Positions 574 to 19,104 of a DNA stretch of 21,325 bases are shown one piece after another. A model generated the notes under the pieces. It had not been told where the DNA came from, made no database searches, and saw only the letters and a program-made list of their open reading frames with translations. The position numbers and the translations under genes are program-made. Origin of the DNA: Hyphomicrobiales bacterium (GTDB taxonomy: Bacteria; Pseudomonadota; Alphaproteobacteria; Rhizobiales; Aestuariivirgaceae); NCBI GenBank assembly GCA_025362535.1, contig JANYGE010000025.1, positions 1-21,325 on the forward strand, given 5' to 3'. Each line of letters begins with the position of its first letter. Position 1 is the first letter of the stretch.

Positions 574-1233
574 TCAAAGTGCCACTTTTCTAAAGCGCAA
601 ATAAGCCGAGCCTCGCCCCTCGCGCACTGCCTTGGCTTCATAACGGGTGCGAATCCAGTTTTCAAACGGAACTGCAGCATCACCCTCTTCAGCAAAGCCC
701 GCATGAGCGTTCACGTGTTCACGGGTCCATTCAACATAAGCTTCAATATCGCTGGCAAACCAAAATTGCCCATCAGCTTTCAATGCGCGGTGAATTTCTG
801 CGAGATTCTCTGGATTTACAAACCGTCGTTTTTTCTGGCGCTCCTTTGGCCATGGGTCAGGATAAAGCAGGTAGACCCGTTCTAGGCATTGCTCTGGCAA
901 TGCCTCCAAAAGAAAACGTGCATCGCCATAATGCACCCGCACATTGGTGAGCTTATGCTCCTCAATTTCAGCCATAAGCTTGGCCACACCGTTGAGATAA
1001 GGCTCAGCCCCCAGAATTGTAACATCGGGATTGAGAGTTGCTTGATGGGCAAGATGTTCGCCCCCACCAAAACCAATCTCCAACCAGCAGCGCGGGCTTG
1101 CTCCCTTTAATGGCGTGGCCAAATCCACGGCCACTTGCGGCAGCAAACTCTCCATCAAGCCAACATGATGACGGCGCAAAGGTTTCCCCTTGCGCCGCCC
1201 ATAAAATTGAAAAACCGGTCTTAAGGAGCTCAC
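574..1233 (-). CDS. trmB: tRNA (guanine-N7-)-methyltransferase TrmB
   Basis: TrmB transfers a methyl group from SAM to N7 of G46 in the tRNA variable loop. The 219-residue protein has the SAM-binding glycine motif EIGFGGGEH at residues 52-60. The family signature DPWPKxRxxKRR lies at 126-137, and the conserved C-terminal T-R-Y-E-x-K segment at 196-201. Length is typical. The start is GTG at 1233-1231, overlapping the metK stop as GTGA. This suggests translational coupling to metK, whose product makes the methyl donor. I see no strong independent Shine-Dalgarno sequence. The start is supported by alignment of the N-terminal [16 protein letters not shown] region with the family start. Confidence 0.95.
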
Positions 1234-2423
1234 TTCACCGCCGCTTTAAGAGCGTCAACCAAATCGGTCTTCTCCCATGAGAAGCCACCATCCTTGGCAG
1301 GCTTGCGGCCAAAATGGCCATAAGCTGCGGTACGCGCATAAATCGGGCGATTGAGATCCAGATGCGTGCGAATGCCACGTGGAGAAAGGTCCATCACCTT
1401 GCGCAAGGCCTTCTCGATTTTAGCATCATCAACTTTGCTCGTGCCATGCGTATCGACATAGACTGACAAAGGTTGCGACACGCCAATCGCATAAGACAAT
1501 TGAATGGTGCATTTCTTGGCAAGCTTGGCCGCAACCACATTTTTGGCCAAATAGCGCGCGGCATAAGCCGCTGACCGATCAACCTTGGTTGGGTCTTTAC
1601 CAGAGAAGGCACCACCGCCATGCGGGGCAGCACCACCATAAGTATCCACAATAATCTTACGGCCCGTGAGACCAGAGTCACCATCGGGTCCACCGATATA
1701 GAACTTGCCAGTAGGGTTCACATGCCAAACTGTGTCTTTGGTGATCCAACCTTTAGGCAGAGCTTTCTTCACATAAGGAGTGACCAGCTTCAAAACATCT
1801 TTCGATGTCATGCTCTCATCGACATGCTGATGCGAAACCACAATTTGTGTGGCACCCACGGGCTTGCCGTTTTTATATTTCACTGTCACCTGGCTCTTCG
1901 AGTCAGGGCCCAATTGCTTGGCCGCACCAGAGTGCCGCGCTTCGGCCAGCAATTGTAAAATGCGTTGTGAATAATAAAGTGGGGCTGGCATCAGGTCTGG
2001 CGTTTCATCACAGGCAAAACCAAACATAATGCCCTGATCACCAGCCCCTTCATCTTTATGCGCGGCAGAATCAACACCAACGGCAATATCAGCCGATTGC
2101 CCATGCAGCAGAATTTCGATTTTTGCAGTGTTCCAGTGAAACCCAGATTGCTCGTAGCCGATCGACTTAATTGCAGCCCGTGCCACAGCTTCAATTTTCG
2201 CATGCGTCACCGAAGCAGGTCCACGGGTTTCGCCTGCGATCACCACCCGGTTGGTCGTGGCCAAAACTTCGCAGGCCACCCGCACGGTCCACGGGTCCAT
2301 GCCTTGTTCCAGCGCTTCGCGGAAAAAGAGATCAACAACTTCATCAGAAATCCGGTCGCACACCTTGTCGGGATGCCCCTCGGATACGGATTCACTCGTG
2401 AAAAGATAAGAACTTCTCGCCAT
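1230..2423 (-). CDS. metK: S-adenosylmethionine synthetase MetK
   Basis: MetK makes SAM from methionine and ATP in the cytoplasm, as a tetramer requiring Mg and K ions. The 397-residue protein shows all the family signatures: [12 protein letters not shown] at residues 16-27, [10 protein letters not shown] at 126-135, [16 protein letters not shown] near 249-264 and the phosphate-binding [16 protein letters not shown] at 269-284. The reading frame extends 12 bases upstream to a TTG. I chose the ATG at 2423 because GGGAG sits five bases upstream of it and because [20 protein letters not shown] is the usual beginning. It follows the praR-like gene after a 162-bp gap full of repeats and a palindrome, so it probably has its own promoter and control. 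It overlaps trmB downstream by 4 nt. Confidence 0.97.
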
Positions 2424-15337: not shown

Positions 15338-15715
15338 CTATCGCCAAGCCAGGGGGTGATCCACCAAAGCCTTATCAATCGTCAACAGCTTCATACCTTC
15401 AGCCGCACAAACACCCAACAACAATCGATCAAATGGATCTTTTGTAATTGGTTCTGGGCCAATAGCAGCAAGCGTGTGGTGTGAGGTAATGTCGAGAATT
15501 GTAATCTCTTGCTTTTCAATCATCAGCGGTAATTTTTCGACAGCAAAAGCAAGTCGCATTTTGCCAATACGATATTTTATCGCAATCTCCCAAATTGACA
15601 CAACACTAATGCTCGCTCCGTTTAAGCTTAACACTTCGTGCTGTATCGCCTCAGGCAACACCAAATCCACCTGGCCGAGAACCGACAATAAAATGTGGGT
15701 GTCGAGAAGTATCAC
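15338..15715 (-). CDS. vapC: PIN-domain ribonuclease toxin, VapC family
   Basis: VapC toxins are small Mg-dependent RNases that cleave tRNA or rRNA and are held inactive by their antitoxin. The 125-residue protein keeps the acidic residues of the PIN active site: Asp5 in MILLDTH, Glu43 in SIWEIAIK, Asp93 and Asp96 in KDPFDRLLL and Asp114 in LLTIDKAL. The pattern belongs to the type II toxin-antitoxin PIN group that pairs with Phd/YefM antitoxins. The start is GTG at 15715-15713, overlapping the antitoxin stop as GTGA, which is typical of coupled expression. It appears intact and full length. A secreted RNase T2 gene follows after 10 nt. Confidence 0.92.
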   Translation of the reverse strand: MILLDTHILLSVLGQVDLVLPEAIQHEVLSLNGASISVVSIWEIAIKYRIGKMRLAFAVEKLPLMIEKQEITILDITSHHTLAAIGPEPITKDPFDRLLLGVCAAEGMKLLTIDKALVDHPLAWR

Positions 15716-15987
15716 GCCGGATCAGTTGTCGGTGTAATTAGATAATCTTCGGGAAATGGATCATCAAAATCCGGAGCAATATATGTTACAGCCTTTTCAA
15801 CCCCGAGTTCCTTTAGGAAGGCGCGACCAGCTTCAAAATTTATGCCACCACGTTTCTTCTCATGAGGACGAAGCTCCACCACAGGCTTGCCATGCCGCGT
15901 GAGCACAATTTTTTCACCAGCTTCGGCGCGGTGTAAAAGCTCCGACAATTGATTTTTGGCGTCTTTAACTGAGATATACATGATCAT
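15712..15987 (-). CDS. Phd/YefM-family antitoxin
   Basis: The 91-residue antitoxin has the N-terminal Phd/YefM DNA-binding domain, ISVKDAKNQLSELLHRAEAGE at about residues 5-25, followed by IVLTRHGKPVVELRP. The C-terminal tail (about 50-91) would wrap the VapC toxin. It should neutralise VapC and repress the shared promoter. Two starts are possible, ATG at 15987 with GGTGG seven bases upstream, or ATG at 15981, which would give a leaderless message from the promoter seen at 15988-16016. They differ by two residues. The gene overlaps vapC by 4 nt. Confidence 0.9.
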   Translation of the reverse strand: MIMYISVKDAKNQLSELLHRAEAGEKIVLTRHGKPVVELRPHEKKRGGINFEAGRAFLKELGVEKAVTYIAPDFDDPFPEDYLITPTTDPA

Positions 15988-16018: not shown

Positions 16019-16075
16019 AATAGGATTTAACCTTTTCCTATTGCAAAACCGCCAGATAATAGGCATTATCCTATC
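16019..16075 (+). promoter_or_regulatory. Array of four AATAGG-type half-sites in two dyads before cysD
   Basis: AATAGGA (16019-16025) and TCCTATT (16036-16042) form one perfect dyad with 7-bp arms. ATAGG (16059-16063) and CCTAT (16070-16074) form a second, nested with GATAAT/ATTATC (16055-16060, 16065-16070). The array ends at the base before the ATG at 16076 and overlaps the apparent promoter. It looks like a tandem operator for the cysD gene, perhaps for autoregulation by the HTH-like domain of its own product. No regulator is identified. Confidence 0.5.
16041..16069 (+). promoter_or_regulatory. Possible cysD promoter giving a leaderless message
   Basis: TTGCAA (16041-16046) and CATTAT (16064-16069) are spaced by 17 bases and would start transcription at about 16076, exactly at the first ATG, which has no Shine-Dalgarno sequence. 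An alternative -10, GATAAT at 16055-16060, matches five of six bases but has a poor -35. Either way the 5' leader is at most about ten bases. Confidence 0.4.
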
Positions 16076-16282
16076 ATGGATACCATCGCCCAATCTTTCC
16101 TCGCTGAAATTGAAGCCTTTTTGGCCAGTTCCGCCACTGACGCAACCGCGCTTGGCAAACAGGCCTTGGGCGATCCCAGCTTCGTTTTCGATTTGCGCAA
16201 AGGCCGCTCGCCATCCACCCGCACCATGGAGAAGCTCCGCAGCTTCATCCGCACCACCACCAATCAGGAGGCCACCAAGCCC
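16076..16282 (+). other. In-frame N-terminal HTH-like domain fused to CysD
   Basis: These 69 codons encode [20 protein letters not shown] (residues 9-28), then [30 protein letters not shown] (29-58) and a polar linker. This pattern, FL-x(n)-FG/LG-x3-L-x-DP-x-FV-x-x-LR-x-GR-x-x-x-x-x-T-x-x-x-x-x-F, is one I recognise from small stand-alone alphaproteobacterial proteins of about 80-100 residues with a Cro/C1-like helix-turn-helix. No stop separates it from CysD. It could be a genuine fusion, or an upstream small gene whose stop was lost and whose downstream gene still uses its own start. Confidence 0.6.
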
Positions 16283-17194
16283 ATGATCGCCCCACACCGC
16301 ATGACCCATTTGGAAAAGCTCGAAGCCGAATCCATTCACATCATCCGTGAAGTGGCCGCCGAATGCGATAAGCCGGTAATGCTCTATTCCGTGGGCAAGG
16401 ATTCAGCCGTCATGCTGCATCTCGCCATGAAGGCGTTTTATCCGGCCAAGCCGCCCTTCCCACTGATGCATGTGGATACGCGCTGGAAATTCCGCGACAT
16501 GATTTCCCTGCGCGATGAAACCGCCAAGCGCTTGGGGCTTGATCTTATCGTCCATATCAATCCTGAAGGCATTGCCAAAGATGTAAACCCGTTTGACCAT
16601 GGCTCGGCTCTTCACACCCAAATTATGAAAACCGAAGGCTTAAAACAGGCGCTCGATAAATATGGCTTTGACGCGGCCTTTGGTGGTGCACGCCGCGATG
16701 AGGAAAAATCCCGCGCCAAGGAACGCATCTTCTCCTTCCGCGATACCAAGCACCGCTGGGACCCCAAGAACCAACGCCCTGAATTGTGGAGCCTTTATAA
16801 TGCCCGCAAAAACAAGGGTGAATCGATCCGGGTCTTCCCGCTCTCGAACTGGACCGAGCTTGATATCTGGCAATATATCCATCGCGAAAATATTCCAATT
16901 GTACCTTTATACTTTGCCGATGAGCGCCCTGTGGTTGAGCGCGATGGCCAATTGATCATGGTCGATGATGACCGCATGCGCCTGTTGCCCGGCGAAGTTC
17001 CGATGTTGAAAAAAATCCGCTTCCGCACATTGGGCTGTTATCCACTCACCGGAGCCATTGAATCCAATGCCACTTCGCTTCTCGATATCATCGAGGAAAT
17101 GCTGGTCGCCACATCCTCCGAACGCCAAGGCCGCGTGATCGATAAAGACCAATCGGCTTCGATGGAAAAGAAAAAACAGGAAGGATATTTCTGA
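16076..17194 (+). CDS. cysD: Sulfate adenylyltransferase subunit 2 (CysD) with N-terminal HTH-like extension
   Basis: CysD is the catalytic subunit of ATP sulfurylase, making APS from sulfate and ATP with CysN. Residues 70-372 form a complete CysD of 303 residues, the normal family length. They include [20 protein letters not shown], the PP-loop [34 protein letters not shown] and the terminal QGYF. Ahead of it, in the same open frame, are 69 residues of a small HTH-like domain (see the separate entry). Translation may start at 16076 to give the fusion, or at the internal ATG 16283 to give canonical CysD. The gene is followed by cysNC in a 1-nt TGATG overlap. No cysH is in the window, so whether APS/PAPS goes to reduction or to sulfation is open. 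Confidence 0.93.
16266..16271 (+). promoter_or_regulatory. Internal Shine-Dalgarno AGGAGG before the canonical CysD start
   Basis: A perfect AGGAGG lies 11 bases upstream of ATG 16283, which corresponds to the start of canonical-length CysD. The spacing is longer than ideal. The outer start at 16076 has no such site, so this element argues that at least some CysD is made without the extension. Confidence 0.55.
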
Positions 17195-19104
17195 TGACCC
17201 GCTTCGTAGAATTCCAAGGCGGTGATGTGGATGCTTTCCTTGCCGCGCAAGAAAATAAAGATCTGCTGCGCTTCATCACCTGCGGCTCGGTTGACGATGG
17301 CAAATCCACGCTGATTGGCCGCTTGCTCTATGAATCAAAAATGCTGTTCGAAGATCAGCTCACAGCCCTCGAAGCCGACTCAAAGAAACTCGGCACCCAA
17401 GGCGGCAATCTTGATTTTGCTCTGCTGGTCGATGGTCTCGCTGCCGAACGCGAGCAGGGCATCACCATTGATGTGGCCTACCGGGCCTTCACCACATCCA
17501 AACGCAAATTCATTGTGGCCGACACACCAGGCCATGAGCAATATACCCGCAACATGGCCACCGGGGCTTCCACCGCCGAGCTCGCCATTATTTTGATTGA
17601 TGCGCGCAAAGGTGTGCTCACCCAAACCCGCCGCCATTCTTTCATTGCCACATTGCTCGGCATTAAAAATCTCGTGGTCTGCGTGAACAAGATGGATCTC
17701 GTCGGCTATAAGCGCGAGACTTTTGAAGCCATCGAAGCTGATTACCGCGCCTTCGCCGCCCAGCTTGGCACCACCGCGAATATCACCGTTATTCCAGCCT
17801 CGGCTTTGGCTGGCGATAACATCATTGAACGCTCCGCCAATATGCCCTGGTATCAGGGTGCCACATTGATGGGCTTTCTCGAAACCGTGCCAGTGGGCGA
17901 TGATCAATCGGCCAAGCCCTTCCGCATGCCCGTGCAATGGGTGGCACGGCCTGACCAAAATTTCCGTGGCTTTGCTGGCACCATTGCCAGCGGCACCTTG
18001 AAAGCGGGCGACGAGATTAGAGTTTTGCCCTCCGGCAAAACCTCAAAGGTCACCCGCATTGTCACTTATGATGGCGATCTGGCAGAAGCCATCGCCGATC
18101 AAGCCGTCACCATCACACTGGCTGATGAAATTGATGCCAGCCGTGGCGATGTGCTCTGCGCCGCAAAATTCCCGATCGAAGTCTCCAGTCAATTCGAAGT
18201 GGAAGTGCTGTGGATGGGTGACGAGGCCATGTTGCCCGGCCGCCCCTATATCATCAAGTCAGGCACCAAAACGCTGCCCGGCACGCTCGATAAATTGAAA
18301 TATAAAATCAATGTGAATACGCTGGAACACGCAGCAGCTGATACATTGACCTTGAATGAAATCGGCGTGTGCAATCTCGAATTGGATGGCCCATTGGCTT
18401 TTACTCCGTATACGGAGAATAAAACCTTGGGCTCTTTCATCATCATTGATCGCTTCACCAACACCACTGTGGGGCTAGGCTTGATCCATTTTGCTTTGCG
18501 CCGTGCTGCCAATATTCATTGGCAAGCCATGGATGTTAATAAGTCATCGCGTGGCGGCCTGCTCAAACAAAAACCAACTGTCTTGTGGTTCACGGGTCTT
18601 TCGGGTGCGGGCAAATCCACCATCGCCAATCTGGTGGAAAAGAGGCTTCACTCCAAGGGCCATCTCACCTATTTGCTCGATGGTGATAATGTGCGCCATG
18701 GGCTCAATCGTGATCTCGGCTTCACCGATGCTGACCGGGTGGAAAATATCCGCCGTGTTGCTGAAGTAGCAAAGCTGATGACCGATGCGGGCCTCATCAC
18801 GCTGGTCTCATTCATCTCGCCCTTCCGCTCTGAGCGCTTGATGGCGCGCGAAAGCGTGGCCAAGGATGAGTTTGTTGAAATCCACATCGACACCAGTTTG
18901 AACGAAGCCGAAAAGCGCGATGTGAAAGGCCTCTATGCCAAAGCCCGCAAAGGCGAGCTCAAAAACTTCACAGGCATTTCATCGCCCTATGAAGCGCCAG
19001 AAAATCCTGAGCTGCGCATTGATACCGCTTTGATGACCGCCGAAGAAGCAGCTAACGAGATTGTGAAGTTTTTGCAGAATAGAGGGCGTTTGGCTTCACA
19101 ATAA
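17194..19104 (+). CDS. cysNC: Bifunctional sulfate adenylyltransferase subunit 1 / adenylylsulfate kinase (CysNC)
   Basis: The 636-residue protein couples GTP hydrolysis to APS formation with CysD and then phosphorylates APS to PAPS. The N-terminal GTPase domain has GSVDDGKST (31-39), DTPGH (110-114) and NKMD (165-168). Beta-barrel domains of EF-Tu type follow to about residue 440. The C-terminal APS kinase domain, from about 455, has P-loop GLSGAGKS (468-475), [10 protein letters not shown] and the ISPFR segment. The fused order is common in Alphaproteobacteria (also as NodQ). The ATG shares one base with the cysD stop, and AAGGA lies just upstream. The last 9 bases overlap the 3' end of convergent hutH. 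Confidence 0.96.

Follow-up and report, generated by a model that had tools for sequence, protein, structure and literature searches.

The 21,325-nt stretch analysed here (the window) carries at 16076-17194 (+) a single open frame of 372 codons plus stop, most of which encodes CysD, subunit 2 of ATP sulfurylase. The CysD models of NCBIfam begin at residues 69-79 and extend to residue 372 (PRK12563, 4.1e-168; TIGR02039, 3.4e-155), the CysD equivalog cut-off is passed by a full-length match (558.7 bits against 413) and cysNC is the next gene; together these make the protein a member of the CysD family. The solved CysD 1zun_A aligns to residues 74-372 (E 4.4e-152), and we place the core at residues 77-372 plus stop (16304-17194, +). 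In this solved CysD of the CysDN complex the match begins at residue 23 of a 325-residue chain and thus leaves no room for an HTH domain, which sets it apart from the protein of the window. The following gene, cysNC (17194-19104, +), encodes 636 aa in which CysN is fused to APS kinase (NCBIfam PRK05506, 1032.8 bits against a cut-off of 715), and its ATG shares one base with the cysD stop.

Residues 1-69 had no significant match among Pfam, NCBIfam or PDB sequences, which, with the starting points of the NCBIfam models, confirms the view of the first-pass annotation that CysD is preceded in the same frame by residues that do not belong to it. An AlphaFold2 model of these 69 residues (pLDDT 84.6) has four helices, at 3-18, 23-31, 36-41 and 48-66; its Foldseek neighbours are nearly all DNA-binding domains of Cro/C1 or POU type, every one with an E-value above 1. 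The modelled fold, compact and helical like Cro/C1 structures, is of Cro/C1 type, and the extra domain, which we set at residues 1-58 (16076-16249, +), is predicted to fold like a lambda-repressor-type HTH. The annotation's further suggestion that the extension is HTH-like is therefore upheld by predicted structure and not by catalogued profiles: no HTH profile of Pfam or NCBIfam matches it, so it is filed under no named HTH family there, and we call a domain without a model in these two collections uncatalogued.

Between domain and core lies a variable linker, residues 59-76 (16250-16303, +), marked by its length, its pN/pS and its low pLDDT. Mean pLDDT is 55 at residues 61-70 of the full-length model, which is also poor in parts of the core (under 50 at residues 207-234 and 347-364); the distance from residue 59 to the core ranges from 16 to 38 residues in 120 fusions among the matches listed, and both length and sequence of the linker are free across relatives. 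The domain is nearly invariant around one 22-residue stretch. Comparison of 25 congener loci gives a pN/pS of 0.31 for the domain, 0.84 for the linker and 0.13 for the core, rough values with pS at 0.57-0.67, and by this measure the HTH domain is under purifying selection.

Conservation of the fusion among relatives

Residues 1-75, used as a query, returned 249 proteins at E ≤ 1e-3; the CysD domain PF01507 is present in all 120 proteins among the matches listed, 118 of which are 369-391 aa long. The presence of PF01507 in all 120 listed relatives marks the fusion as a conserved arrangement, and we reject chance read-through or a missed stop. Our set of 61 genomes includes 37 of the window's genus (its own counted), and 25 of these contain the complete fusion without internal stops (loci L042-L066). 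Three more hold partial or broken matches, free of stops in the matches listed: one split over two contigs (G006), one broken within the core near residues 217-246 (G007) and one covering residues 1-86 only (G024). A stop codon or frameshift between the two parts in close relatives, which by the first-pass annotation would have refuted its reading, occurs in none of the 25 congeners that match completely, and the CysD homologues with N-terminal extensions that it wished to see collected are now at hand, all 120 listed matches being CysD fusions; the long frame is, as it had supposed, genuine, and its combination of CysD with an extra N-terminal part is conserved among relatives.

A close CysD without the domain is found in five congeners (G005, G010, G017, G023 and G026), and a further four lack CysD (G014 and G015; weak matches only in G022 and G030). 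The domain-less proteins form one clade (99/95), nested among the fusions by a midpoint root with modest support (82/79); we count them as one event, probably a loss of the domain, the root being a midpoint. At one of their loci (L067), a divergent gene at 757-1419 (-), 220 aa, reads as HTH plus cupin and adjoins the domain-less cysD; by eye, the other domain-less loci of L067-L071 have a similar divergent sequence, and this HTH-cupin gene is possibly a replacement regulator. Five of the 61 genomes (G018, G025, G028, G031 and G035) have a second CysD, 59-62% identical, that is without the HTH domain.

Within the linker, AGGAGG (16266-16271) stands 11 nt before an ATG at 16283 (together 16266-16285, +), a possible second start for a CysD of 303 residues. 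This Shine-Dalgarno-like word, present as GGAGG in the nearest relative (L043) and missing in L044-L046, makes a short second product possible in this organism, and the gene could then yield two proteins, the long HTH-CysD acting as regulator and the short CysD as enzyme. The 11-nt spacing is long, however, and such a start is not general: the linker has no ATG, GTG or TTG in 9 of the 25 congener fusion loci and no ATG in 14, and 59 of the 120 proteins among the matches listed have no Met in it. Many species thus have no separate CysD start, and we regard the two-product reading as unlikely.

Palindromes at the HTH-cysD promoter

Two operator-like palindromes, listed without strand, lie ahead of the fusion gene: ATAGGATTTAACCTTT distally (16020-16035) and ATAGGCATTATCCTAT proximally (16059-16074). 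Each is two mismatches from the pattern ATAGGATNNATCCTAT, and the proximal one is an exact TAGG-N6-CCTA that a single base separates from the start codon. A putative promoter, recognised by its resemblance to consensus, comprises TTGCAA (16041-16046), a 17-nt spacer and CATTAT (16064-16069; together 16041-16069, +), and CATTAT, a plausible -10 box, falls inside the proximal site; the putative transcript would start near 16076 and be leaderless. This candidate operator at the gene's own promoter, which co-varies with the HTH, is new beyond the first-pass annotation.

We searched 22 loci, that is, the window and 21 relatives. At up to two mismatches of 14, ATAGGATNNATCCTAT has 24 matches in 19 of the 22, each of them no more than 200 bp upstream of HTH-cysD, and none elsewhere in the 274,791 bases of these loci. 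At up to three mismatches it lies upstream of 24 of the 25 congeneric fusion genes and of none of the five domain-less congeneric cysD genes, which represent one clade and one event. As a control, TAGG-N6-CCTA (≤1 mismatch, 150 bp upstream) was found at 21 of 21 HTH-cysD genes versus 3 of 271 other ORFs, taken mechanically at ≥200 codons from the same loci. Operator spacings are 39-40, 50-51 and ~104 bp and are helically phased in appearance.

In many congeners the proximal site stands against the start codon, a position that would also suit an RNA hairpin at the ribosome-binding region through which the protein regulates translation. We give this hardly any credence: in many congeners distal sites of the same kind lie ~48-122 bp upstream of the start, in relatives such sites lie beside -35-like words, and the modelled fold is of DNA-binding type.

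A wider regulon was considered at up to two mismatches and rejected. Nine congeners without a domain-bearing cysD have a mean of 17/9 = 1.9 such sites, and the 28 others, three of which hold only partial fusions, a mean of 1.8 after subtraction of the 26 sites at cysD (24 in the 25 complete loci plus two in G006); a reversed-pattern control for these counts is poor because the pattern contains TAG. As the congeneric genomes show no excess of sites outside cysD, the target of the domain is probably its own operon, cysD-cysNC. In the window's own genome the other sites with up to two mismatches both lie within coding frames, and exact TAGG-N6-CCTA recurs at three other places, on C261 in a transporter-like frame and on C219 and C267 with a GC-rich middle.

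The domain outside CysD and its recognition segment

Elsewhere in the Alphaproteobacteria, relatives of the domain occur as standalone genes, as tandem copies and fused to other enzymes. A class-wide search with a standalone relative matched 26 of 385 genomes, and a profile search matched 80 of 397 genomes of the order, 33 of 385 of the class and 156 of 246 of the order of G385; in the window's own genome (G000), single-sequence search and profile A4 found one copy of the family. NCBIfam identifies partners as homoserine dehydrogenase (L145, 6.5e-155), CoaBC (L142, 473 aa, 8.6e-118; a TAGG-type site at one mismatch upstream), AMP nucleosidase (L084, 3.3e-183; no clear upstream site) and class II fumarase, or fumarase C (L075, 1.2e-232). 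The last three fusions were seen in one genome each among the genomes searched; that to homoserine dehydrogenase has 62 protein matches, two named Devosia, and 20 loci with a site of TAGG-N6-CCTA type (L145, L155, L159, L161, L165, L168 and others).

A further partner, methyltransferase-like by eye, is common in family f27 (genomes of 4.8-8.8 Mb), and in L146 it had no match in Pfam or NCBIfam. These fusions (L080, L090, L144, L146, L147, L149-L154, L156-L158, L160, L163, L164, L167, L170, L172, L174, L183, L186, L188 and L189) include three with an exact TGGG-N6-CCCA upstream (L090, L144 and L186); by eye, a group of 447-451 aa has a widely spaced TGGGCAGA...TCTGCCCA pair instead. Tandem HTH-HTH proteins (L073, L074, L076, L081, L087, L098, L099 and L101) differ in their upstream motifs, and that of L101 has, by eye, a MerR-like tail. 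The same small domain, with an operator preference that can be read, thus accompanies five enzyme types of confirmed identity and one type of protein without a name.

We compared the upstream palindrome with the recognition segment of the domain across 130 loci, from which 71 representatives with less than 75% HTH identity were kept, counting sites at ≤1 mismatch within 150 bp upstream. The palindrome tends to follow the segment, in classes defined after the first data set had been viewed: TAGG-N6-CCTA is present at 23 of 31 'DP' versus 1 of 29 'DG' representatives (Fisher 7e-9), and TGGG-N6-CCCA at 2 of 31 versus 14 of 29 (Fisher 3e-4). The 11 representatives of other classes have TAGG in none and TGGG in two, and the background over 1228 windows is 1.2% for TAGG-N6-CCTA and 4.9% for TGGG-N6-CCCA. 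Among all 256 possible 4-6-4 palindromes, counted as exact matches, TAGG ranks top in DP (16/31, the next 2) and TGGG in DG (13/29, the next 4).

The same rules were applied unchanged to 31 unused loci, nearly all of DP type: 28 from the order of G385, perhaps Sphingomonad-like (30 returned minus two used earlier), two DG loci and L242. The 28, which are interrelated and not thinned, have TAGG in 16, that is, in 12 of the 22 labelled DP and 4 of the 6 labelled other, these six being QDP/RDP variants missed by the class pattern; TGGG also occurs in 3 of the 28. Both new DG loci have TGGG and neither has TAGG, and L242, of another class, has neither TAGG-N6-CCTA nor TGGG-N6-CCCA upstream. Background for the unused loci, over 508 windows, is 2.6% for TAGG (13/508) and 4.1% for TGGG.

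The rule has clear failures. No TAGG site is found in 12 of the 28 loci from the order of G385, with 10 of the 22 new DP loci failing; L095 is of DG type with TAGG, and the fumarase fusion L075, also DG, has ATAGGAAATATCCCTT upstream, which is TAGG-like at two mismatches. Neither motif is found at 14 of the 29 DG representatives, including the 447-451-aa methyltransferase-like fusions L146, L170 and L172, and TAGG-N6-CCTA is mostly missing from tandem-HTH representatives. With a PWM trained on the congeners, the top-scoring site within a locus fell upstream in 11 of 28 class loci, where 8% is expected (6 of 18 non-tandem and 5 of 10 tandem loci, with low scores for some). Other recognition variants (L206, L210, L214, L187, L212 and L215) have, by eye, other palindromes, for example CGCTATAGCG and TCGGAAATCTCCGA, which suggests a larger residue-to-base code. 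The pairing of DP with TAGG and of DG with TGGG is itself a rule amenable to bench experiments.

CysB and CymR exemplify the control in trans that is usual for known cys operons, and the palindrome might likewise be the site of a different transcription factor, with the N-terminal domain structural or vestigial. This seems very improbable. The palindrome accompanies the domain at fused genes that are unrelated to each other, and its sequence tends to vary with the recognition segment; it is missing where the domain is missing (the five domain-less loci, one clade); by pN/pS the domain is under purifying selection; and searches of the window's own genome found just this one copy of the family.

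A proposed model of enzyme-borne autoregulation

Taken together, the computational results (a conserved fusion, an HTH-like fold and an operator that co-varies with the HTH) make it quite probable that HTH-CysD is real in its long form, that this ATP sulfurylase subunit has a Cro/C1-type DNA-binding domain built in, and that it autorepresses cysD-cysNC through TAGG-N6-CCTA palindromes; from these results we infer DNA binding, dimerisation and repression as the sign of control. The domain, probably dimeric and tethered by the flexible linker, would bind TAGG-N6-CCTA at its own promoter and repress the operon, and the level of the enzyme would in this way set its own transcription. Steric repression fits, since in the window the proximal site covers the plausible -10 box and abuts the start codon. 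The simplest working model is abundance control, to which coupling to CysN assembly or substrate would be an addition: speculatively, the protein might leave the DNA once its CysD part engages CysN or substrate, and it would then be a sensor of flux or stoichiometry. The proposal of the first-pass annotation that a sulfate-activation enzyme could carry its own regulatory module thus gains support from a candidate site that lies at its own promoter and co-varies with the HTH.

Across relatives, 45 of the 83 loci with a site have a -35-like word in contact with it (13.3 expected; maximum 23 in 200 random placements). The site touches such a word in all 20 of the 20 homoserine dehydrogenase fusion promoters, and only 2 of the 25 CysD promoters pass this -35-contact rule. 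The promoter layout suggests that of a repressor. Nonetheless, the distal sites of many congeners, together with the regulated biosynthetic steps among the fused partners (Hom, CoaBC, CysD), would also suit an activator, or a ligand-switched repressor/activator in which contact with substrate or CysN gates DNA binding, that is, a full trigger enzyme. We hold this to be somewhat unlikely: as is typical of repression, proximal sites lie over the start region or in contact with -35-like words, and nothing in the analysis points to ligand coupling.

We propose, tentatively and with slightly less than even confidence, that this uncatalogued alphaproteobacterial mini-HTH is a plug-in autorepressor grafted repeatedly onto the N-termini of unrelated enzymes, often with its operator (the partners being CysD, homoserine dehydrogenase, CoaBC, fumarase C, AMP nucleosidase and the methyltransferase-like protein); each enzyme would become a sensor and limiter of its own abundance, released from DNA on engagement with its complex or substrate, and the standalone mini-HTH would repress its own gene. 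Enzyme-coupled autoregulation would then appear as a transferable module, which would explain the control of sulfate activation in these Alphaproteobacteria and supply a small building block with which to make enzyme expression self-limiting.

Enzymes acting on their own genes have been known as isolated examples. PutA, for which ligand switching is known, has a ribbon-helix-helix DNA-binding domain, and BirA represses biotin genes through a winged HTH. PutA is an enzyme unrelated to HTH-CysD, with a ribbon-helix-helix in place of a Cro/C1-type HTH, and BirA acts on biotin genes, whereas HTH-CysD sites are seen only at the enzyme's own gene. According to the available text of PMC6978683, PutA is a proline dehydrogenase, a metabolic enzyme that directly represses the put operon, and BirA a biotin protein ligase, an enzyme that represses the biosynthetic (bio) operon; HTH-CysD would resemble PutA in combining metabolic catalysis with direct repression of the operon of its pathway. 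One chain here contains, as judged from sequence and predicted fold, both an enzyme and a DNA-binding domain, and the regulatory site that a trigger enzyme has in the promoter of its own or related genes is present as a predicted one. On present sequence and model evidence, the best explanation is that HTH-CysD is of this 'trigger enzyme' kind, with an uncatalogued plug-in domain.

Within sulfate assimilation, PAPS reductase A of Tuber melanosporum is both enzyme and transcriptional activator, according to the available text of PMC4848566; it differs in being fungal, in activating through a C-terminal peptide and in being another enzyme of the pathway. C.Esp1396I, C.AhdI and other small Cro/C1 regulators share the HTH fold and are among the closest structures; the two controller proteins differ in having no fused enzyme, and no significant sequence similarity to the HTH-CysD domain was found. 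Restriction-modification controller proteins autoregulate via operators at their own promoter. In searches of open-access literature, the matches listed included no description of HTH-CysD, of HTH-homoserine dehydrogenase or of a shared plug-in domain, in line with the remark in the first-pass annotation that no HTH-CysD regulator is known to have been described.

Divergent from HTH-cysD, the window carries at 15338-15987 (-) a Phd-family antitoxin (NCBIfam TIGR01552, 4.9e-9) and a toxin that is PIN-like by eye and had no match in NCBIfam. Upstream in L010/L044 the DNA is similar. Between the toxin-antitoxin genes and cysD, GTAGCCACCAGTAGCTAC looks like the antitoxin's own palindrome.
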